NCBI GenBank assembly: GCA_024224995.1
Contig: JAAENB010000665.1
Location: forward strand, 1 to 41,181
DNA from: a bacterium
GTDB taxonomy: Bacteria; Spirochaetota; UBA4802; UBA5550
Length of the DNA: 41,181 nucleotides
Direction of reading: 5' to 3'
The translations under genes and the position numbers were made by a program. The notes under the pieces were generated by a model. The model did not search any database. It was not told the DNA's origin and saw only the letters and a program-made list of their open reading frames with translations. This document shows, piece by piece, positions 25,276 to 36,928 of this stretch; the stretch's first letter is position 1, and every line of letters starts with the position of its first letter.

Positions 25276-25722
25276 GACACAAACGGCCAGGTTAAACTTA
25301 CTTTGCCAGGGCAAAACATAAACACTATCAAATTAGTGCTTACTTAAACAGTGTTGTCGAACAATATTTGGTCTAAAGGAGACCGGGGAAAATGTTTCAG
25401 GAATCAACTGCTGCAAAAAGGCAGAAAAATTTCACCACAAAGCAGTGAATCATTTCACAGCTTTAAAACAGCACTCTCTTTTTTGCAAAAAAAAAGAAAA
25501 AATTTGCAAAAAAGTATTGACAACATCGGGTACATTTAAAAAATGTCCACACCGTAATCGGCGATAACTTTTAAGAATGCATAAAAAGTATCGATCAAGT
25601 TAAGGAGTTTCAAAGGAATTCTCCCGGCATTAAGGGATATGCAAAGGGAGGAATTAGAAATCTATCAAAACAATACCAAACCTAATTCCGGTTGTAAGAT
25701 AAGCCGGGAAGGGAGACAAAAC

Positions 25723-27114
25723 ATGAATAAAGGATTAAACGTACATGACACAACCGAAACTATGAGTGGAGTCGGCAGCTCAATTCTCGAGAGACCCTCT
25801 ATGCCGGAGAATGCATTACCAATGCAGAACAAAAGAGCTTTTTATTCACCTACGCAGAATAACAATAAATCTTACCTGTTCCTGTTCTCTGCCGACAATA
25901 AAGAGAAACTAAAAAGATACGCCGGGGGGATGATCTGTTTTTTAGAAACCAAATTCTTCGCGCAAATGGACGAACCCGCCGAACAGGTTCTTACCAACCT
26001 TTCCTATATTTTCCAAACCGGCTGCGACGCCAAAGACGAACGATTGGCTCTCATCGTTTCAAATGCCAATGAATTATTTGAAAAGTTAACCGCCTATTGC
26101 GAAGGAAAGACCGCGATAAAAAATCTTTACACGAACAATGTCGCGTCAAATGGTCTTTACACACAACTCCTCGTTGCCGGTCAATCCGGTACGGAATTCA
26201 TCAATTCCATCTTTAGACGCGGGGAATGCGATAAACTGGCCCTGCTCTGGACTTCGGGTGTTGAAATAGACTGGCACAAGCTATATACCGAGAATGATTT
26301 CAGTGAAATCAAATCTTCAAAAAATTCGCTTCCGGAAAACCCCTTCGATAAAAAAACTGAAAAAGTAATTCCGAAAATGAGTACGGCACGCGAAGCAACA
26401 GAAGAGAAACCTGAACCTGCTGTTTCAAACCGCGCAGAACCCATGAGCAACGATATTGTTCGTGATTTACAAAAGATCTACGCGGAAATATTCGCTACTG
26501 ATGTTGACGAGATTGTTATTGATGAAAGCTTCTTCGATATGGGCGGCACTTCAATGGACGCGGTTCAGCTCATCAATGAAATTGAAACTCTCTACGTTAC
26601 CATTACTATAGAAGAGCTGTTTATGTATCCTTCTGTTGCGTTAATGGCTGAATATATTGCCGATCGCTCTGGCATTATAACAATAACCACACAAGAAACA
26701 AAACAAGAAGAAGAAAAACAAAAAGAAGAAAGTCATGCCGATAATAACCTCGACAGAGAACTCACTAACAACACGACCAGTGATACCGTTCCGGAACTGC
26801 AAGAAATCTTCGCGGAAATATTCGCGATGGATGCCCATGAGATTGTCATTGATGAAAGCTTCTTCGACATGGGCGGTACCTCAATGGACGCGGTCCAACT
26901 CATCAATGAAATTGAAACACAGTATATTCCTTTCACCATAGAAGATCTGTTCCAGTACCCTTCTGTCGCGTTAATGGCTGAATACCTTGACGTACAGTTA
27001 AGCCATACTACAGTTACCAATACAGAACCAGGATTTGTTTCCGGTAAAGATATCTGGATCACAAACAATCTCCCTGCTGCTCACGAAAAACTCACCTCCC
27101 ATTTATCCTATTAA
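25723..27114 (+). CDS. PKS-derived protein: KS-flanking remnant plus two carrier domains
   Basis: The protein (463 residues from this start) has no catalytic KS. Its part encoded at about 25870-26280 (YLFLFSADNKEKLKRYAGGM, then DERLALIVSNANELFEKLTA, ending LALLWTSGVEIDWHKLY) matches the linker that normally follows a ketosynthase in trans-AT polyketide synthases. After a charged spacer come two acyl/peptidyl carrier domains, each with SFFDMGGTSMDAVQLINEIE; the phosphopantetheine Ser codons are at 26551 and 26881. The two are nearly the same in DNA and lie 330 bases apart, so they arose by recent duplication. The frame is open to an ATG at 25639; I prefer 25723, which has GGGAG 7 bases upstream. 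It probably supplies the carrier sites that the next protein's KS module lacks. Confidence 0.8.
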   Translation: MNKGLNVHDTTETMSGVGSSILERPSMPENALPMQNKRAFYSPTQNNNKSYLFLFSADNKEKLKRYAGGMICFLETKFFAQMDEPAEQVLTNLSYIFQTGCDAKDERLALIVSNANELFEKLTAYCEGKTAIKNLYTNNVASNGLYTQLLVAGQSGTEFINSIFRRGECDKLALLWTSGVEIDWHKLYTENDFSEIKSSKNSLPENPFDKKTEKVIPKMSTAREATEEKPEPAVSNRAEPMSNDIVRDLQKIYAEIFATDVDEIVIDESFFDMGGTSMDAVQLINEIETLYVTITIEELFMYPSVALMAEYIADRSGIITITTQETKQEEEKQKEESHADNNLDRELTNNTTSDTVPELQEIFAEIFAMDAHEIVIDESFFDMGGTSMDAVQLINEIETQYIPFTIEDLFQYPSVALMAEYLDVQLSHTTVTNTEPGFVSGKDIWITNNLPAAHEKLTSHLSY

Positions 27115-27376: not shown

Positions 27377-30300
27377 ATGAAAAAAGATAGTGAACAAAAA
27401 CCAAATCAGTATAACGCGGATAGTTCCGATATCGCGATTATCGGCATATCATGCCGGGTTCCCGGCGCTGAGAACTACTCCGAGTTCTGGCAAAACCTGG
27501 ATAAGGGCATCAATTCTATTTCCGAAATTGATGAATCTCGGATGAAGCTCGATTCGTTCTTTTCCCCTGACTATTCAGATCCAAACAAATCTCATTCCAA
27601 ATGGGGCGGATTTCTGAAAAACATTGACGCCTTTGATAATAAATTCTTTCAAATATCCCCGGCTGAGGCCAAGAACATGGACCCACAGCAGAGAATACTT
27701 CTGGAAGAGACCTGGAAGTGTATTGAAGACGCGGGCATTTCTCAAAACAGCTTATCCGCTTCCAGAACAGATGTCTATATCGGTTTTATGGCTACTGATT
27801 ATAAACAGTTGTCGGTTGACGATTCATTTGAGGTCAATCAATATTCTTGCTCCGGCAGCTATTCCAGTATTCTGGCCAACAGGATATCCTTCTATTTTGG
27901 GCTCACCGGCTTCAGCAAAGCAATTGACACCGCCTGTTCCGCATCCATGGCCGCAATATATGACGCGGTAAACACGCTGCAAACACAAAATAGTGATTAC
28001 GCGTTTGTCGGCGGCGTTAACATGATATTGCATCCTTATAAATATATTTCATTTTCTAAAGCACGCATGTTAAGTCCCGACGGACAATGCAAAACCTTTG
28101 ATAAAGACGCGAACGGATATGTCCCCGGAGAAGGAGTCGCGGTTATCCTGCTGCAGCCGCTTAAAAAGGCATTGGATGAAAAAAACAACATTTATGGAGT
28201 TATTAAAGGATCGGCCGTCAACCATGTGGGTAGAGCCAGACACCTGAGCGCTCCTACTGTCAAATCCCAAAAAGAGCTTCTTTTGTCTGCCTTTAACAAC
28301 GCGAATATTGATCCCGGCAAGCTGAGTTATATTGAAGCTCATGGCACCGGAACCTCCCTGGGAGACCCTATAGAAATTGAAGCTTTAAGCACGGCATTCA
28401 GGGAACATACGGAAAAAAAACAATTTTGCAAGATTGGTTCCGCTAAAAGCAACATCGGTCACCTGGAAGGTGCCGCTGGAATTGCCGGTGTAATAAAAGT
28501 TTTAATGATGATGAAGAACCGGCACATACCCGCCAGTTTAAACATTAGCAATTATAACCCACTGATTAACTGGGAGAGTACCCCCTTCGTTATTGCAACT
28601 GAAGGAGCTGATTGGACTTCGGATGAACCACTTCTTGCGGGTGTGAGCTCTTTCGGATTTGGCGGCGTAAATGGACATGTTGTATTGGAAAGTTTTCAAT
28701 ACCCGGTTGAAACTGAAGAGACAAACGGGATAAGCTTACCGTTTATTTTATCCGCGAAGTCAGCTTTTAGTCTTGAACAGGTGATAAAAAGATGGAAAGC
28801 CTTTGTTAACTCCGATGAATTTAGCCGGATGAAATTGAAAGATATTTGCGGCACCCTGACTCATGGAAGAACTCCTCTGAAATTCCGTATTGCCGGAGTG
28901 GTGAGTTCAAAAGAAGACATAAAGAGTATTTTACATGAAACTGACTTGCCGGTTCAAGGTTCCACTCTTAAAAAAACAGCACTTTTAATAGGTCAATATA
29001 CAGACCGTGACATTTCTGTTTCTTCATTATGCAGCCGGTTCCCGTTTTTAAATGATTATATCACCCCTATCCTGGATGTCATTGAGAAGCACACAGGGAA
29101 GCGGGAGATCTGTAACACAAACGATTCTCTTAATGAATTTATCGGACTATATATTACATCACAACTGCTTTTATCTCCCGGATTAGAGCCAGACCTGGTT
29201 GCGGGCCATGGGACCGGGGCTCTCGTGAGTTATGCCCTGTCCGGTGCTTTACCTGTTGAACAGGTTGTCGATTCTTTCTTTAATAAAGAACCAGGTTCGT
29301 CCCTGGAACCGGTTCGGCCGCTTGTGCCCCTGTTAAACCCTATAACAGGAGAGATTGAATATCCGCATAAATTTGATGCTGAGTATGTTGAATCATTGAT
29401 TTCAGAATCGAAGGTCGATGCCGCTACATACGAGGAATACTTTAAAAAAGCAAGAACCCTATTTGAAAGCCAGTTTACATTTAAAAATTACCTGCTCAAG
29501 TGGAATAGAGCTCTTCAGCAGGTTGATCTCTCTGCTGAAAAATTGTTCCGGGAAAACGGTAATGAGAACAAGAGTGCCTATAAACTCCTTTTAATGGTTA
29601 TGATTTTCTCCGCGCTGCGCCTTCTCTATGAAAAGTGGGATTTGGAAGAACATTTTCCTGAAAATAAAACACCCTTTTATGATCTTGTGAATCTTATTGT
29701 GGATGAAGTCATAACGAACGATGAATTTGTTGCTGTGCTGGCGGCAAGGGTGCCGGACTATGGAAAAATAGCCGGATCAATGAACACAAGACAAAAAAAA
29801 ATAAAGCACCCATACCAGGCTCCTGACAGGCTAAATAAATTGGGCTCCATCAATAACGCTGGACGTTGGATTGACGTCAACCCCGAATTGCTGAAATCAT
29901 ATACTGTAATACAGACAGGTAGTACTAATCCCGGTATACAAAATAGTGTACAGATAGAGATCGATGAAAATATAAATCCCGGTTTATTAAAGAGCATGGT
30001 GAATCTCTGGCTTCTTGGAGCTGATATTCAGTGGGATAAAATTATCAGTGACGGTTCTTTTTATAAAAAGCCTCTGCCTGTGTATCAGTTTAACAGGGGG
30101 GCTTTCTGGCTTGAAAAAGCAAAAAATTTGGAGGGCAAAAAAAACATGGAAAAAATCACCGATTCAAATGAAATAGATGAGATGAAAAAAATGAATAATC
30201 ATGGAGAAACACAAGATATGAAAATCGAACTTATAAAAGAACTCAAAAGCGAAATCATTGCAGAGCTTAAAGCAGAGCTTAAAGCGGGACTTAAAGAAAA

Positions 30301-33300
30301 TATAAAAGAAGATTCAATAGAAATTAAAACAGAGATAACAAGACAAAATGAAGCAGAAGCAGAAACAACAATAGAATGTCATCCCTTATCCGCAGGGCAG
30401 AAAGACCTCTGGATGATTTATAAAATCTCCCCTGAAAATTATGCTTATAATGTTTCAAATATTTTCCGTGTTAATGACAAACTCAATATAGAAGCACTAA
30501 GAAAAGCATACAAACAGTTAATTCTTCGTCATCCTGTCCTCAGAACCAGGTTCATAGAGTTAAACAATACGCCAGTTCAAGAAATCAATCCAGAAGCGAA
30601 ATTATTTTTTCAACACAAAGAAATTGCAACAAAAACGGAAGACGACCTGATTGATTTTCTCAAGCCACTTGCACGGGAACCGTTTAACCTTGAGGAAGGT
30701 CCTTTGGTTCGTCTTCATGTATTTACTGACTCATCTCTTCCAAACAGTTCGAATATTATTTTAATAACATTCCACCATATCATTTATGATGGAACATCAA
30801 TACTTACTCTGGTTGAGGACATGCGAAGCTATTATCTGGCGGAAGTACGGGGAAAAACGCCCCCCTTACCACCTCTGGAAACCACTTATGAAGATTTTGT
30901 CACTTGGCAGGAAGATATGTTAAGCAGTGCTGAAGGCAAAAAACACAAAGATTACTGGCTTAATAAACTATCCGGAGAATTGCCGGTACTGGAGCTTCCA
31001 ACTGATAATCCGGCATCAAAGGCCCGTGATTACATAGGAGAAACCTTCATAAGCGAAATTTCCGAAGAGGAAACAAACCAGCTAAAGAAACTGGCCTGGA
31101 GTGAAAAGGTATTTCTATATCCCCTTATGTTGAGCGCCTATACAATTCTCCTCCATAGATATTCCGGACAAGATGATATACTTGTTGGTTCCCCAGTCTC
31201 CGGTCGACCAGGGAAAAAATTCAATAAACTCATGGGATTCTTTGTAAACATGGTAGTTCTACGAATGAATTGCAATGACAATATGACTTTCAGAGAATTT
31301 CTACGCCAGGTTCAGAATACGGTTTCGGAAGCTCTGACCCATGGAGATTACCCTCTTCATGAACTTACAAAGGATTTAAAAGGTAGCCGTGATAGTGGAC
31401 TATTATTTGACGCGGCATTTTTATTCCAGAATTACATTACAGGCAGCAACATAGAAAAATCAGGTATTGAACTGGACTTTAGACTTCACCAAAACGGTTA
31501 TTTTAATTTTAACCTGGAAATAATTGAGCACGACAACAAATGTTTACTATTTTTTAAATATAACTCTGACCTTTATGGTCAAGAGACCATTGCAAGAATA
31601 TCTGACCAGTATAAAGAGATCCTTAACTCAATAAAATTAAATGTGGAACAAAAAATTTCAGAAATCAATTTAATTCCCGCTTCAGAAAAAGAAAAATTAC
31701 TATTTCACTTTAATAATAACAGCCTAACATATCCTAAGAACAAAACTATGAATGAGTTATTCCAAGAACAGGCAGAAAAAACTCCTACAAATACAGCATT
31801 AGTATATGAAAATACACAATTATCCTACCGGGAACTTAATGAAAAGGCAAACCAGGCGGGTCATGAATTAAGGAACAGGGGAGTAAAAGCGGATACTGTA
31901 GTTGGCATTATGCTGGACCGTTCTGTGGAAATGATAACAGGAATTTTATCAATTATAAAGGCTGGTGGCGCATACCTTCCAATCCCCGTAGATTACCCCG
32001 AAGACAGAATCAGTTATTTAGTTGAAAACAGTGGACTTTCCATAATTCTTTCCAATGGAAATATTAAAAATATGCTGGATGCGAGTCTAAGGAATGAAAA
32101 GGTTGATATAATTGATATTAAAGATCCATCACTATATCAAAACCCAAAAACAAATCCTGAAATTGTTACTATGCCCGAAAACCTTGCCTATGTTATTTAC
32201 ACTTCAGGGTCAACAGGAAAGCCTAAGGGAGTAATGGTAGAGCAACAGAATGTTGTTAACCTGGTCTTTGGATTACATGAGAGGATATATAAGAAGTACC
32301 ATGAAAATTTAAACGTCGCACTGGTAGCACCTTACTTTTTTGATCCATCAGTACAACAGATTTTTGCCGCTTTATTATTAGGACATGCTTTACATGTTGT
32401 ACCGGAAGAGAGCAGGATAGAGGGAGATTCTTTATTGCGATATCTAAAAAAGCACAAAATAGAAATTTCAGATGGCACTCCAATTCACATACAACTTCTC
32501 CAGGAAAGTATGACCAGGAGCAATACCACCTGCAATGTAAAACATTTCATAATCGGTGGAGAGGCTCTACATCGAGATGTGGTTGAACGTTTTTTTAACA
32601 ATTACCAAGAAAATAATCCCGTAATTACTAATATATATGGCCCAACCGAATGCTGTGTTGATTCAACATCGTATGAAGTTACGATAAATACCATTGATGA
32701 TTATAGCAATATTCCAATAGGCAAACCAATGCCGAATGAACAAGTCTATATCCTGGATAAAAATAAGCAACTCACACCACTTGGGGTTCCGGGAGAACTT
32801 CATATTAGTGGTGATGGCGTATCGAGAGGGTATCTTAACAAGCCGGAACTAACAAAAGCAAGTTTTATAGATGATCCCTTTAATAAAGAAAGAAGGATGT
32901 ACAGTACCGGTGATCGCGTCCGATGGACCCCCGATGGAAATATTGAATTTCTTGAACGAATAGATCATCAAGTAAAGATTAGAGGATTCAGAATTGAACT
33001 GGGAGAGATAGAAAAAACACTTTACGATTTCGAAAGACATACAGATTATATGGATAATGTTGATCCCGAAATGCTCCCAACAAAACTTGCAAATCTAAAA
33101 CGTTGCACTAAATGCCTTATTTCAGAAAATTATCCTGGTGTAGAATTTGATGAAGATGGAGTATGTAATTTTTGTCATGAGTTTGAGGAGTACGAGACTC
33201 ACGCACAGGCTTATTTTCAAAATATTGATGACCTGAAGGCATTGATTGGTGGAGCCCAAAAAGCCAAGAAAAACGATTCGGAGTATGACTGCCTGCTACT

Positions 33301-35395
33301 TTTCAGTGGTGGAAAAGACAGTTCCTATGTACTATACCGACTGGTTGAACTTGGGCTAAAAGTACTGGCTTTTACCTTTGACAATGGGTACATTTCAGAT
33401 ATGGCTTTTGAAAATATTGAGAGAATTACTTCGAAACTTGGTGTTGATAGTGTTATTTCTGACGCAAAAAAAATGAATGATATTTTTGTGGAAAGTTTAA
33501 ATTTGGATCAAACAGTTTGCAACGGCTGTTTTAAAGCTCTTACAACAATCGGTATGGAAGTTGCTCTTGAAAAAAATATCAACATGATATTTACCGGATT
33601 ATCAAGAGGCCAAATTTTCGATACGAAGCTTCATGGATTACTCAAACAAAAAACTTATGATATTAAAGAGATAGAGGAGAAACTTCTTCTTTTTAGAAAA
33701 CTATACCACTCTACCGGTGATAGAATAGTTGAACTTTTGGATGTTGAGTTTGAAAATGACACTATGGACAATATTCATTTTATAGACTTTTTCAGATATG
33801 AAAATGTCTCGGTGAATGCAGTAAAAGAATACTTGAAAAAAACAGATGAATATTGGAACCAGCCATTAGATACCGGTTTTTGTTCAACAAACTGTATCAT
33901 CAATGATGTGGGAATCTATGTGCATTCAAGGGATCTCGAATACCACAATTACGAAGGACCGTTAAGCTGGGATATTCGTCTCGGTGTTAGTACACGAGAA
34001 GGGGTTATTGATGAAGTTGGTTTTCACAGCGAGATTGATAGGGTTGGCACTATTCTTGATGAAATAGGATACCTGACACCCCCGATTAAAGATGTTGTTG
34101 TAATCGACAGAGAGGACAATAACGGCAGCAAATCTCTTTGCGCGTATTTCACTTCAGATAAAGAAGTTACAACACTCAAACTCAGAGAATACTTATTGCA
34201 GAAGCTGCCCGACTATATGGTTCCAAACTATTTTGTACAAGTTGATACAATTCCTATGACTCAAAACGGAAAAGTAGACCGGAAAGCCTTACCCGACCCT
34301 AAAGATTTTGCAATAAATAAGGGATCCGAATATATTTCACCAAGAAATGAAACTGAAAAACAATTGGCCCATATATGGTCAGAAGTACTCGGTGTTGAAG
34401 GAATTGGAATTGATGATAATTTTTTTGAAATGGGTGGAGATTCCATCCTGGCTATTAAGGTCATACAAAAAATCAATAGCGGATTCAATATTGAAGTTCC
34501 AATTTCAGCGATAATGAGAAATTCTACTATCAGGGGGCTTGCTGAACTCAGTGACTTTGAAGGATCAGTTGTCCCCATAGTGGACACGGAACAGGATAAA
34601 AGTAGTAAGAAAGCTGAAATGGACAAGTATGAAATGATCCTTATAAAAAGAGGCGAAGGAGAAGGTGAGCCCAAAAATTGTTTCTTTATACATACGGGTT
34701 TTGGTAATGTTACCCCCTACCTGTTGCTCAGCGAAAAACTGGATCCGGAAATTACCTGTTGGGGATTTTTAGCAGACAAAGAATATATTGCGTATAATCG
34801 CATAATTTTTGAAAATATAGCAGAAACATATATAAAAAAAATTCGGGAAAAACAACCGAAAGGACCGTATAACATTAGCGGATACTGCCTTGCCGCGACT
34901 ATTGCATTTGAAATAGCACGACAACTGGAAGCGGCTGGGGAAGAGGTTAGTAACTTGGTGTTAATCAGCGCTGGGGCTCCACAGAAAGATTTTTGGTCTA
35001 CTCAGAACATTTTCGATAAAATGTCTTCTCTATTGAAAGATTTAAAAGCAGACAAAATTTCATTAGAATATGCGATAGAAAATATGCCATATTCAATTAC
35101 TGTTGGATTTCCAGATATTGAAAAAATAGACAAAGAAATTTTCATCAAAGAACTTATGTTTATTGAAAATATCCAGAATGGACGTGAGAACTATTTTCCA
35201 AAAACAAAGCTCAAAACCGAACCTTTTTATATCAAAGCAGAAGAAAGAGATTTCAATGAAAGTCATTGGCTGCACTTTTGCAAGAATGGAATTAAATTTC
35301 AATCTTTTGAGGGAAACCATGAAAGCATTTTCCAGGAACCAATTGTAGATAAAATCGCGTCAGTAGTTGGTCCTATGCTAACAGCAAAAAGTTAA
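27377..35395 (+). CDS. Hybrid PKS-NRPS megasynthase with interrupted adenylation domain
   Basis: The 2672-residue protein reads in order as follows. Ketosynthase, about 15-440, with complete triad C187 (DTACSAS), H322 (EAHGTGTS), H362 (NIGHLEG). KS linker and an acyltransferase-like remnant, about 530-700, with GHGTG in place of GHSxG. Linker ending PVYQFNRGAFWLEK. Charged helical segment, about 920-985. Condensation domain, about 990-1440, with HHIIYDG at 1133-1139. Adenylation domain from about 1470, with YTSGSTGKPKG at 1608 and RGFRIELGEIE at 1869-1879. An inserted zinc-ribbon/PP-loop domain, about 1889-2232. The adenylation C-terminus with LPDYMVP and NGKVDRKALP at about 2240-2310. Carrier domain with Ser2356 (GGDSI). 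Thioesterase, about 2420-2672, with Cys2504 (SGYCLAA) and His2648 (GNHES). It would add a polyketide unit, then one amino acid whose pocket resembles Gln/Glu, then release. No carrier lies between KS and C, so the upstream protein likely helps. The NRPS half is richer in A/T than the KS half. Confidence 0.92.
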   Translation: MKKDSEQKPNQYNADSSDIAIIGISCRVPGAENYSEFWQNLDKGINSISEIDESRMKLDSFFSPDYSDPNKSHSKWGGFLKNIDAFDNKFFQISPAEAKNMDPQQRILLEETWKCIEDAGISQNSLSASRTDVYIGFMATDYKQLSVDDSFEVNQYSCSGSYSSILANRISFYFGLTGFSKAIDTACSASMAAIYDAVNTLQTQNSDYAFVGGVNMILHPYKYISFSKARMLSPDGQCKTFDKDANGYVPGEGVAVILLQPLKKALDEKNNIYGVIKGSAVNHVGRARHLSAPTVKSQKELLLSAFNNANIDPGKLSYIEAHGTGTSLGDPIEIEALSTAFREHTEKKQFCKIGSAKSNIGHLEGAAGIAGVIKVLMMMKNRHIPASLNISNYNPLINWESTPFVIATEGADWTSDEPLLAGVSSFGFGGVNGHVVLESFQYPVETEETNGISLPFILSAKSAFSLEQVIKRWKAFVNSDEFSRMKLKDICGTLTHGRTPLKFRIAGVVSSKEDIKSILHETDLPVQGSTLKKTALLIGQYTDRDISVSSLCSRFPFLNDYITPILDVIEKHTGKREICNTNDSLNEFIGLYITSQLLLSPGLEPDLVAGHGTGALVSYALSGALPVEQVVDSFFNKEPGSSLEPVRPLVPLLNPITGEIEYPHKFDAEYVESLISESKVDAATYEEYFKKARTLFESQFTFKNYLLKWNRALQQVDLSAEKLFRENGNENKSAYKLLLMVMIFSALRLLYEKWDLEEHFPENKTPFYDLVNLIVDEVITNDEFVAVLAARVPDYGKIAGSMNTRQKKIKHPYQAPDRLNKLGSINNAGRWIDVNPELLKSYTVIQTGSTNPGIQNSVQIEIDENINPGLLKSMVNLWLLGADIQWDKIISDGSFYKKPLPVYQFNRGAFWLEKAKNLEGKKNMEKITDSNEIDEMKKMNNHGETQDMKIELIKELKSEIIAELKAELKAGLKENIKEDSIEIKTEITRQNEAEAETTIECHPLSAGQKDLWMIYKISPENYAYNVSNIFRVNDKLNIEALRKAYKQLILRHPVLRTRFIELNNTPVQEINPEAKLFFQHKEIATKTEDDLIDFLKPLAREPFNLEEGPLVRLHVFTDSSLPNSSNIILITFHHIIYDGTSILTLVEDMRSYYLAEVRGKTPPLPPLETTYEDFVTWQEDMLSSAEGKKHKDYWLNKLSGELPVLELPTDNPASKARDYIGETFISEISEEETNQLKKLAWSEKVFLYPLMLSAYTILLHRYSGQDDILVGSPVSGRPGKKFNKLMGFFVNMVVLRMNCNDNMTFREFLRQVQNTVSEALTHGDYPLHELTKDLKGSRDSGLLFDAAFLFQNYITGSNIEKSGIELDFRLHQNGYFNFNLEIIEHDNKCLLFFKYNSDLYGQETIARISDQYKEILNSIKLNVEQKISEINLIPASEKEKLLFHFNNNSLTYPKNKTMNELFQEQAEKTPTNTALVYENTQLSYRELNEKANQAGHELRNRGVKADTVVGIMLDRSVEMITGILSIIKAGGAYLPIPVDYPEDRISYLVENSGLSIILSNGNIKNMLDASLRNEKVDIIDIKDPSLYQNPKTNPEIVTMPENLAYVIYTSGSTGKPKGVMVEQQNVVNLVFGLHERIYKKYHENLNVALVAPYFFDPSVQQIFAALLLGHALHVVPEESRIEGDSLLRYLKKHKIEISDGTPIHIQLLQESMTRSNTTCNVKHFIIGGEALHRDVVERFFNNYQENNPVITNIYGPTECCVDSTSYEVTINTIDDYSNIPIGKPMPNEQVYILDKNKQLTPLGVPGELHISGDGVSRGYLNKPELTKASFIDDPFNKERRMYSTGDRVRWTPDGNIEFLERIDHQVKIRGFRIELGEIEKTLYDFERHTDYMDNVDPEMLPTKLANLKRCTKCLISENYPGVEFDEDGVCNFCHEFEEYETHAQAYFQNIDDLKALIGGAQKAKKNDSEYDCLLLFSGGKDSSYVLYRLVELGLKVLAFTFDNGYISDMAFENIERITSKLGVDSVISDAKKMNDIFVESLNLDQTVCNGCFKALTTIGMEVALEKNINMIFTGLSRGQIFDTKLHGLLKQKTYDIKEIEEKLLLFRKLYHSTGDRIVELLDVEFENDTMDNIHFIDFFRYENVSVNAVKEYLKKTDEYWNQPLDTGFCSTNCIINDVGIYVHSRDLEYHNYEGPLSWDIRLGVSTREGVIDEVGFHSEIDRVGTILDEIGYLTPPIKDVVVIDREDNNGSKSLCAYFTSDKEVTTLKLREYLLQKLPDYMVPNYFVQVDTIPMTQNGKVDRKALPDPKDFAINKGSEYISPRNETEKQLAHIWSEVLGVEGIGIDDNFFEMGGDSILAIKVIQKINSGFNIEVPISAIMRNSTIRGLAELSDFEGSVVPIVDTEQDKSSKKAEMDKYEMILIKRGEGEGEPKNCFFIHTGFGNVTPYLLLSEKLDPEITCWGFLADKEYIAYNRIIFENIAETYIKKIREKQPKGPYNISGYCLAATIAFEIARQLEAAGEEVSNLVLISAGAPQKDFWSTQNIFDKMSSLLKDLKADKISLEYAIENMPYSITVGFPDIEKIDKEIFIKELMFIENIQNGRENYFPKTKLKTEPFYIKAEERDFNESHWLHFCKNGIKFQSFEGNHESIFQEPIVDKIASVVGPMLTAKS
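28964..30115 (+). other. Catalytically dead acyltransferase remnant within the megasynthase
   Basis: Residues about 530-913 keep the shape of a PKS acyltransferase region: LLSPGLEPDLVAGHGTGALV followed by SYALSGALPVEQVVD, then a linker with the usual end PVYQFNRGAFWLEK. The nucleophile elbow reads G-H-G-T-G (Gly612), so the catalytic Ser is gone and much of the normal domain length between the motifs is missing. The KS must therefore rely on a separate acyltransferase (trans-AT) or accept a unit loaded in another way. Confidence 0.65.
33041..34072 (+). other. PP-loop/zinc-ribbon domain inserted in the adenylation domain
   Basis: About 345 residues lie between adenylation core motif A8 and the start of the C-terminal subdomain. 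They open with a Cys4 ribbon (RCTKCLIS at 1909-1916, VCNFC at 1929-1933, with FDEDGVCNFC between), as in N-acetyl-sugar amidotransferases. Next is the PP-loop LLLFSGGKDSSYVL (SGGKDS 1977-1982), which binds ATP and releases pyrophosphate. Further Cys pairs are CNGC (2048, 2051) and CSTNC (2169, 2173). Known PP-loop relatives activate a carbonyl with ATP and then add ammonia or sulfur. The frame is continuous through both joins. Confidence 0.85.
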
Positions 35396-35548: not shown

Positions 35549-36928
35549 ATGGATAACAATAAAACCGGAAAAAACAACATCTTCGAAGGAAAAATCCTAC
35601 CAACAACAATGAAACTTGCCATGCCAATAGCAGCAAGCAACTTCCTCATGTTCCTCTATTTTATCGCCGATACGATCTTCATATCCCGGATAGACACCAC
35701 TTCTACTGCCATATTAAGCGGCGTAGGACTCATCTTCCCTATCTACATGATATTCCTGGCACTCCGGAACGGTATTACCTTTGGTGTAGGAACATTCGTT
35801 GCCCGGGGAATCGGGGAAAAAAACAGTTCTGCCATTAATAAAGCAGCAGATTCGGGCTTTGTTCTTTCTTTAATCCTTTCACTACTATTGGTATGCGGCG
35901 GTTATTTTTTTGGCCGGGACATGATCTCCCTGCTTGCGGGATCAAAATTATCGGGAGAAGCGGTGGAGCATGGTATTAATTATCTATATTATTACCTGCC
36001 GGGAATGGGAATTCTACTCCTGGAATCGGTACTGTTTGGCGTTCTTCAGGGAGAAGGCCTCATGAAGTATGCCGCCTGGGGATACGCCATTACGTTTATT
36101 CTGAATATTATCCTTGATCCTATTCTAATATTTACGTTTAATATGGGCGTAGCAGGGGCGTCACTGGCAACAACAATTTCAATCGCTATATCGGCCCTGT
36201 ACTTAATTTCGGTTATTTTTAGGAATAAATCATCCGTTAAAATAAACTGGAATATATTAAATGCGCAGAAAAAAATTGTTTATGAGATCACCCGGATTGG
36301 GCTATCCAACGCCGTTGGTTTCTTATGCATATCCGTTACAATTATATTTTTAAATAAAATAGTCAGTTCCATAGGAGAAGCGGAGATGAACGCCTGGATA
36401 ATCTGCCTCAGGGCAGACAACCTGCTCCTCCTTCCGTCCCAGACCATTTCAGCCGTAACAATGACCATGATCGGGCAAAATTACGGGAAGAAGAATTTAA
36501 AGCGGGTATGGGATATCTACCGGCGTCATATTCTCTATTGTGTCGTTGCGATATTTTTCCTTGCGGTTATATATATCACCCTGATTGCTCCCTTCTTGAT
36601 CAGCATATTGACAAATGTGCAGGCCGTTATAGACGGAGCGATGCTCCAGGTAAAGGTACTATCGTTTATGTATCTCACCAGCGCCTTTGTGTTTGTCTCG
36701 CTTTCGGCTTTCCTTGCAACGGGTCGGCCCATACCGCCGATTCTTATTAATGTAGCGAGAACGGCGCTTTTTATTGTGCCGCCGGCTTTTTTGCTTGTCT
36801 ATGTATTTAACATGGGCATGATTGGGGTCTTTGCAAGTCTTGGTTTTGGCAACCTCCTCTTAATGATTCTCTGCTGGTTCTGGACCAATCATCATTTGAA
36901 AAACCTGGAATATAAAGAGCTGGTGTAG
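35549..36928 (+). CDS. MATE-family multidrug/product exporter
   Basis: The 459-residue protein has twelve hydrophobic helices in two matching halves, as in MATE (MatE x2) cation-coupled exporters. Family features include the N-terminal PTTMKLAMPIAASNFLMFLY segment, ISRIDTTSTAILSGVGLIFP in helix 2, LLLPSQTISAVTMTMIGQNY at the start of the second half, and the long loop at mid-protein. It lies 153 bases after the megasynthase gene in the same direction and is the only transporter near it. It most likely exports the product of the PKS/NRPS proteins or gives self-resistance; that is inference from position. The ribosome site is weak (AGAGA). A palindrome of the CCCCCATT/AATGGGGG type (about 35480-35527) lies in the gap and may lower read-through. 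Confidence 0.88.
   Translation: MDNNKTGKNNIFEGKILPTTMKLAMPIAASNFLMFLYFIADTIFISRIDTTSTAILSGVGLIFPIYMIFLALRNGITFGVGTFVARGIGEKNSSAINKAADSGFVLSLILSLLLVCGGYFFGRDMISLLAGSKLSGEAVEHGINYLYYYLPGMGILLLESVLFGVLQGEGLMKYAAWGYAITFILNIILDPILIFTFNMGVAGASLATTISIAISALYLISVIFRNKSSVKINWNILNAQKKIVYEITRIGLSNAVGFLCISVTIIFLNKIVSSIGEAEMNAWIICLRADNLLLLPSQTISAVTMTMIGQNYGKKNLKRVWDIYRRHILYCVVAIFFLAVIYITLIAPFLISILTNVQAVIDGAMLQVKVLSFMYLTSAFVFVSLSAFLATGRPIPPILINVARTALFIVPPAFLLVYVFNMGMIGVFASLGFGNLLLMILCWFWTNHHLKNLEYKELV

Follow-up and report, generated by a model that had tools for sequence, protein, structure and literature searches.

We analysed a 41,181-nucleotide stretch of DNA (positions 1 to 41,181 of contig JAAENB010000665.1, assembly GCA_024224995.1, hereafter the window) from a bacterium of the Spirochaetota (UBA4802; UBA5550). 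It encodes a polyketide synthase-nonribosomal peptide synthetase (PKS-NRPS) in which the adenylation (A) domain, carrying a glutamine-type code, is interrupted by a PP-loop domain. This insert is homologous to the AMDH (aminomutase/amide dehydratase) domain of CysH, and on balance we read it as a Gln-coded relative of AMDH that would dehydrate carrier-bound Gln to 2-amino-4-cyanobutanoyl at the expense of ATP, with an iron-sulfur (Fe-S) cluster held by three cysteines. The reading is built on architecture, homology, the Gln-type code, covariation and a predicted fold, from which we infer the substrate, the nitrile, the adenylated intermediate, and the cluster and its role. The features on which it depends are:

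27377..35395, + strand: PKS-NRPS gene, a single uninterrupted open reading frame (ORF) encoding 2672 amino acids
31760..33034, + strand: adenylation core, residues 1462-1886, with the Gln-type code DPQDIGIVD
33041..34072, + strand: inserted PP-loop domain, residues 1889-2232 (344 amino acids), homologous to CysH AMDH
33104..33175, + strand: Cys4 zinc-ribbon-type motif, C1910, C1913, C1930 and C1933
33305..33322, + strand: PP-loop SGGKDS, residues 1977-1982
33518..33529, + strand: CxxC (CNGC), residues 2048-2051; C2048 and C2051 are two of the three proposed Fe-S ligands
33893..33895, + strand: C2173, the proposed third Fe-S ligand
34076..34294, + strand: C-terminal A subdomain, comprising A9 and A10 (NGKVDRKALP), by Pfam and motif

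RGFRIELGEIE (residues 1869-1879) and LPDYMVP (2277-2283) flank the insert, which in the usual A-motif numbering follows motif A8 of the adenylation domain and precedes A9. A sequence-only reading of this DNA had described a Cys4 ribbon, SGGKDS, CNGC and CSTNC between these flanks, and we found every motif at the residues it gave. The ribbon is formed by CTKC (1910-1913) and by CNFC inside FDEDGVCNFC (1924-1933), and CSTNC occupies residues 2169-2173. Pfam recognizes the A core (1462-1820) and the A C-terminal subdomain (2234-2299) as separate matches on either side of the insert, whose own sole Pfam match (E <= 1e-3) is QueC. The best NCBIfam match of the insert is TIGR03573 (N-acetyl sugar amidotransferase, NASAT), with E 6e-34 and 118.1 bits against a cut-off of 203.2. 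A tetracysteine motif of this form coordinates zinc in LpNASAT (8WEX), as described in PMC10607449. The structure model of the insert is one confident PP-loop domain (pLDDT 92.8, pTM 0.92), in line with the fold that had been proposed.

A search with the insert region alone (residues 1885-2240) against NRPS-size proteins returned 2306 candidates, of which 228 matched at E <= 1e-3, ruling out a chance origin. The best 120 were used as a first set; they are the part of the family nearest the window, and their proportions differ from those of the whole family. The PP-loop is placed inside an A domain in all 120 listed proteins, and isolate genomes with the same arrangement include Lacrimispora algidixylanolytica and Paenibacillus spp. 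The layout is thus unlikely to have arisen from an assembly join.

The sequence-only reading knew of no described system of this exact layout. We gave up the idea of an unprecedented architecture, because such a system has been described, an outcome that the sequence-only reading had itself named as refuting it. According to the passages of Gross et al. (2021; PMC7966384) used here, CysH of cystobactamid biosynthesis contains an inserted 38 kDa domain with SGGKD, named AMDH. In the reconstituted reaction it converts carrier-bound Asn to beta-cyanoalanine by loss of water, and it also isomerises Asn to isoasparagine, mainly once CysJ has hydroxylated the Asn. AlbIV, from albicidin biosynthesis, has the same layout; its insert shares 69% identity with the CysH insert, and its product contains beta-cyanoalanine. 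The same passages place all AMDH homologues found by BLAST in Asn-coded A domains, and report products that carry nitriles or isoasparagine. They describe CysH as dark brown, with no Fe-S motif of the kind its authors sought, and leave the mechanism open.

The window insert is 41% identical over 332 residues (E 2e-90) to protein P0244 of Cystobacter sp. Cbv34, which we take to be CysH from its strain (that used in PMC7966384), size and architecture. In a separate genome, a CysH-like module is surrounded by genes for a two-module NRPS, ADC synthase and ADC lyase, a B12-radical SAM enzyme, an O-methyltransferase and a TauD-type oxygenase, as expected for a cystobactamid-type cluster. The inserts of the window and of the Cbv34 protein both interrupt an A domain, are about 38 kDa and carry SGGKDS, the Cys4 ribbon and CxxC...C. 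In the Cbv34 protein, however, a stand-alone A-AMDH-carrier (T) module has an Asn-type code (DLTKIGEVG), whereas the Gln-coded A domain of the window sits in a protein of the ketosynthase (KS)-condensation (C)-A-T-thioesterase (TE) type; residue 2056 is Thr in the window and Tyr in the Cbv34 protein, which also lacks a counterpart of C2169. AlbIV, known here by description and not by sequence, likewise differs in that its product is Asn-derived. Since the window A domain lacks the Asn-type code, which is a correlate of AMDH and not its definition, the insert would be best filed as an AMDH-related variant with a Gln code, and not as AMDH in the strict Asn sense. The homology nevertheless supports an earlier proposal, that the PP-loop domain works in cis and that its substrate is an amino acid bound to the carrier. 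Among the open-licence papers listed, the term 'AMDH domain' occurred only in PMC7966384 and its correction, and 'amide dehydratase' (from 2018 on) only in PMC7966384; the titles and abstract starts listed contained neither a Gln-directed AMDH nor an Fe-S proposal for AMDH.

We read the nine code positions of related A domains by alignment to that of the window, with the accepted positions and meanings, by which DPQDIGIVD is of Gln type. The 120 interrupted A domains of the first set comprised 69 of Asn type, 43 of Gln type (41 DAQD/DPQD-like and 2 DAWQ) and 8 others, one of them a gap row, whereas the 48 uninterrupted A domains of the same proteins included 2 of Asn type, 3 of Asp type and 43 others. 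The difference in Asn/Gln codes gave a Fisher p of 2e-30, or 5e-25 after thinning at 70% identity, although kinship makes these values overstate independence. In an A-core tree, made by a quick method and with many weak forks, interrupted domains were spread over several lineages, with the codes DLTK (Asn), DAQD (Gln), DAWQ (Gln), DAEH, DARH/DAKH and, in one case, a Thr-type code. A second protein search, with a CysH-like protein as query, scored 7992 candidates, with 1708 at E <= 1e-3 and 120 listed. The CysH-near set held 117 new proteins, 116 of which were used (107 Asn-coded, six with other or gapped codes and three without a readable A domain), so that Asn codes made up 107/113 readable interrupted domains and Gln codes 0/113. 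As far as we searched, the Gln-coded branch of AMDH relatives is not described in open-licence literature.

Two residues on either side of the CxxC of the insert were found to vary with the code of the surrounding A domain:

33512..33514, + strand: T2046, Thr in 43/43 Gln-coded and 0/69 Asn-coded inserts of the first set
33542..33544, + strand: T2056, the insert residue that tracks the A-domain code

At position 2056, the 43 Gln-coded inserts of the first set have Thr (42) or Ser (1), and the 69 Asn-coded inserts have Asn (46), Tyr (20) or Leu (3). The same rule was kept in 11/11 further loci with a full code (3 Gln-coded and 8 Asn-coded, four of the latter from Paenibacillus), and two Asn-coded loci on rhodobacteral plasmids, L104 and L105, fit it too. 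Tyr occupies the position in 107/107 Asn-coded inserts of the CysH-near set; these are all near CysH and none is Gln-coded, so that the agreement bears on the Asn side of the rule. Position 2046 is Asp, Asn, Gly or Ser in 69/69 Asn-coded inserts of the first set. It was rejected as an equal marker, holding in 9/11 further loci (L031 and L037 combine an Asn code with Thr) and failing in 1/107 further Asn-coded inserts. The insert tree divides the inserts with Asn codes into two main groups; the Gln-coded P0085 sits in the CysH half, yet keeps both Thr residues. Four DAEH-coded inserts have Thr at 2056, as in the Gln type. Because residue 2056 follows the A-domain code, the insert probably handles or recognizes the side chain loaded by its own A domain. 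This rule and its covariation are, as far as searched, new to the open-licence literature.

These data also bear on the possibility that the insert is a non-catalytic relic which scaffolds the A domain. A degenerate acyltransferase (AT)-like motif after the ketosynthase points to possible decay in at least one region of the protein, but the PP-loop, ribbon and triad of the insert are intact and its substrate-linked residues obey the Gln rule. We consider a relic very improbable.

In the reaction that we favour, the A domain would load glutamine onto the T domain of its own module, and the PP-loop domain, consuming another ATP, would adenylate the side-chain carboxamide at its oxygen. Loss of AMP would then give the nitrile, with 2-amino-4-cyanobutanoate held on the carrier before condensation or TE release. 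ATP-dependent conversion of an amide to a nitrile via an AMP-imidate has been proposed for ArtA/NitB and QueC/ToyM (PMC13060819), and the same step on carrier-bound Gln is the simplest reading. By the title of a cited reference, ArtA/NitB, the nitrile synthetase of auranthine (PDB 9lei, 9leh), is argininosuccinate-synthetase-like, and the passages of PMC13060819 used here mention neither a zinc ribbon nor a Cys triad, both of which the insert has. Alternatively, the insert could isomerise the carrier-bound residue (the aminomutase half), or act only after another tailoring enzyme, leaving no nitrile in the final product. The isoasparagine formed by CysH, chiefly after hydroxylation by CysJ (PMC7966384), speaks for this. 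However, a partial scan of 18 window ORFs revealed no CysJ-like (TauD/SyrP-type) oxygenase, and the alpha,beta shift of Asn presumably lacks a direct counterpart in Gln, making this alternative improbable.

The dehydration that we prefer would involve a three-Cys [4Fe-4S] cluster held in the active site by the CxxC...C cysteines, the zinc ribbon being structural. C2173 is kept in 120/120 first-set inserts. The triad is shared with Fe-S PP-loop enzymes and lacking in four annotated sugar-amidine synthases (NASATs). C2173 may be the equivalent of the third Cys of LarE/NcsA, to which it is matched by order only, at +196 from the PP-loop against +150 to +173 in the sulfur-transferase-type proteins compared; by motif scan, CSTNC contains the last cysteine of the insert. 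The triad could hold an Fe-S cluster, which could account for the brown colour described for CysH. Such a triad in AMDH-type domains was not described in the open-licence literature searched, and to that extent is new.

LarE, NcsA and TtuA/TtcA share with the insert the PP-loop, the CXXC-C motif and a similar core fold, and insert sulfur on tRNA or a nucleotide cofactor, unlike the substrate proposed here. By analogy, the Gln branch may consist of thionases, in which cluster-borne sulfide attacks the adenylated side-chain amide to give thioglutamine. The Cys triad matches the sulfur-inserting PP-loop enzymes. However, CysH loses water and gains no sulfur, the reported products being those given above (PMC7966384). 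The window insert has an N-terminal ribbon that is not found in four LarE-family proteins compared, and is missing the C-terminal zinc ribbon of TtuA/NcsA (in TtuA-like proteins, further Cys pairs form a second set at the C terminus). In addition, no sulfur-carrier or desulfurase gene was detected in the partial scan of 18 window ORFs. We regard thionation as unlikely, though the least so of the alternatives.

The TIGR03573 match raises a further possibility, that ammonia attacks the adenylated Gln amide to give an amidine, as in NASAT and WbuX. NASAT/WbuX (8wex; PMC10607449, in the passages used here) has in common with the insert the whole-length fold, the zinc tetracysteine motif and the PP-loop. 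NASATs, however, make amidines on sugars; four examples lack the CxxC and third Cys of the insert, and the tetracysteine motif is incomplete in 2/4 of those compared. The TIGR03573 score, too, falls below the cut-off of that family. In 3/4 NASATs compared, HisH and HisF-type genes are adjacent. With the proteins of these NASAT controls themselves as queries, tblastn detected HisH/HisF-type genes in 3/4 NASAT controls, in 1/38 stand-alone loci and in both rhodobacteral plasmid loci; they were absent from the window, from 25/25 A-inserted loci (our own grouping, which includes L024, L038, L058 and the two CysH-cluster stretches) and from 20/20 actinobacterial-type loci. The plasmid loci are a counter-case, as L104 and L105 share a block with an Asn-coded insert-bearing NRPS and have hisH about 12-15 kb away. 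In both, hisH and hisF lie in a polysaccharide locus close to the NRPS block. The WbuX match had initially led us to prefer amidine synthesis; we abandoned that preference on the absence of the Cys triad from four NASATs and on the HisH/HisF scan, and now give amidine synthesis little credence. The earlier suggestion that the assembly line amidates or thionates in cis therefore fares unevenly: amidation has become less likely, whereas thionation keeps the support of the triad, set against loss of water by CysH.

The remainder of the synthetase and its neighbours provide the context for the interrupted module:

25639..27114, + strand: upstream ORF, with two carrier domains and a stretch resembling a KS linker
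27425..28546, + strand: ketosynthase, residues 17-390; Pfam PF00109 and PF02801
29204..29218, + strand: GHGTG, residues 610-614, resembling acyltransferase GHSxG with Ser replaced by Gly
30380..31702, + strand: condensation domain, residues 1002-1442; Pfam PF00668, with HHIIYDG
34361..34549, + strand: carrier (T) domain with GGDSILAI, by Pfam and motif
34682..35350, + strand: thioesterase by Pfam, with GYCLAA at the nucleophile position
35549..36928, + strand: MATE exporter

The domain order is KS, linker plus AT-like remnant, C, interrupted A, T and TE, and Pfam matches in the 2672-residue protein are KS, KS linkers, C, AMP-binding, AMP-binding_C, PP-binding, thioesterase and QueC. There was no Pfam match to an AT domain around GHGTG, which may be a degenerate AT remnant. 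Pfam likewise gave no carrier domain between KS and C. Since the upstream ORF contains carriers, the KS may rely on carriers supplied in trans; the ORF probably belongs to the same pathway. Its two carrier domains are similar to each other. At the nucleophile position of the thioesterase (GYCLAA, residues 2502-2507, 34880-34897) there is Cys and not Ser. NRPS thioesterases of the Cys type are known where strained rings are released, so the release step here may be unusual. The MATE exporter perhaps exports the product of the pathway.

Relatives of the insert extend beyond A domains. Of 125 relatives detected in GTDB genome contigs, the best 80 loci came from Aminicenantes, Paenibacillus, Lacrimispora, Ruminiclostridium, Streptomyces and other taxa, and in about half of these 80 the relative stands alone or is built differently. 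In L041 and L042, stand-alone proteins with the CxxC...C triad adjoin Ser- and Gly-coded NRPS genes, and others are near free adenylating enzymes (L043, L060, L071), indicating that the family is wider than the inserted domains. In 377 genomes of the phylum of G006, matches at E <= 1e-30 occurred in 11, the strongest being 8e-39, so that none there is of the CysH kind; in the family of G376, where 108 genomes were searched, there was one match, at 2e-113. Among 72,556 plasmids, tblastn found 16 records, three of which (H1-H3) are near 41% identity across the full query; the remainder are annotated as N-acetyl sugar amidotransferase (eleven), hypothetical (one) and 7-cyano-7-deazaguanine synthase (one).

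An actinobacterial version (L011-L015, L017, L018, L021-L023, L026-L029, L033-L036, L040 and L103) consists of asparagine synthase, an A-T didomain, an AMDH-like domain fused to half a condensation domain, and an Asp/Glu racemase. The full gene order was observed in L103 (annotation) and L014 (Pfam), and an ORF for a DARHxxLMT-coded A domain was read in 14/19 loci of this type other than L103 (L014 counted). Some of these AMDH-like domains have A-domain remnants around them. Six proteins (P0006, P0010, P0039, P0059, P0076 and P0081) carry B12-binding/radical SAM domains as well as the PP-loop insert, and in P0006 both share one A domain.

More broadly, and more tentatively than for the window insert itself, we suggest that a second, Gln-directed branch of AMDH exists in several phyla: an Fe-S-dependent PP-loop enzyme that would form 2-amino-4-cyanobutanoate (or thioglutamine) on the carrier and in which residue 2056, and more weakly 2046, would read the side chain chosen by the A domain. 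The residue-2056 rule could help to predict the substrates of such modules. The triad, together with its absence from the sugar-amidine relatives, offers a direct hypothesis for the AMDH mechanism left open in 2021 and, if correct, would amount to the first proposal of an Fe-S cluster in an amide dehydratase. With the Gln branch, nitrile formation would reach a second residue, and the branch marks gene clusters whose products may hold a rare functional group.
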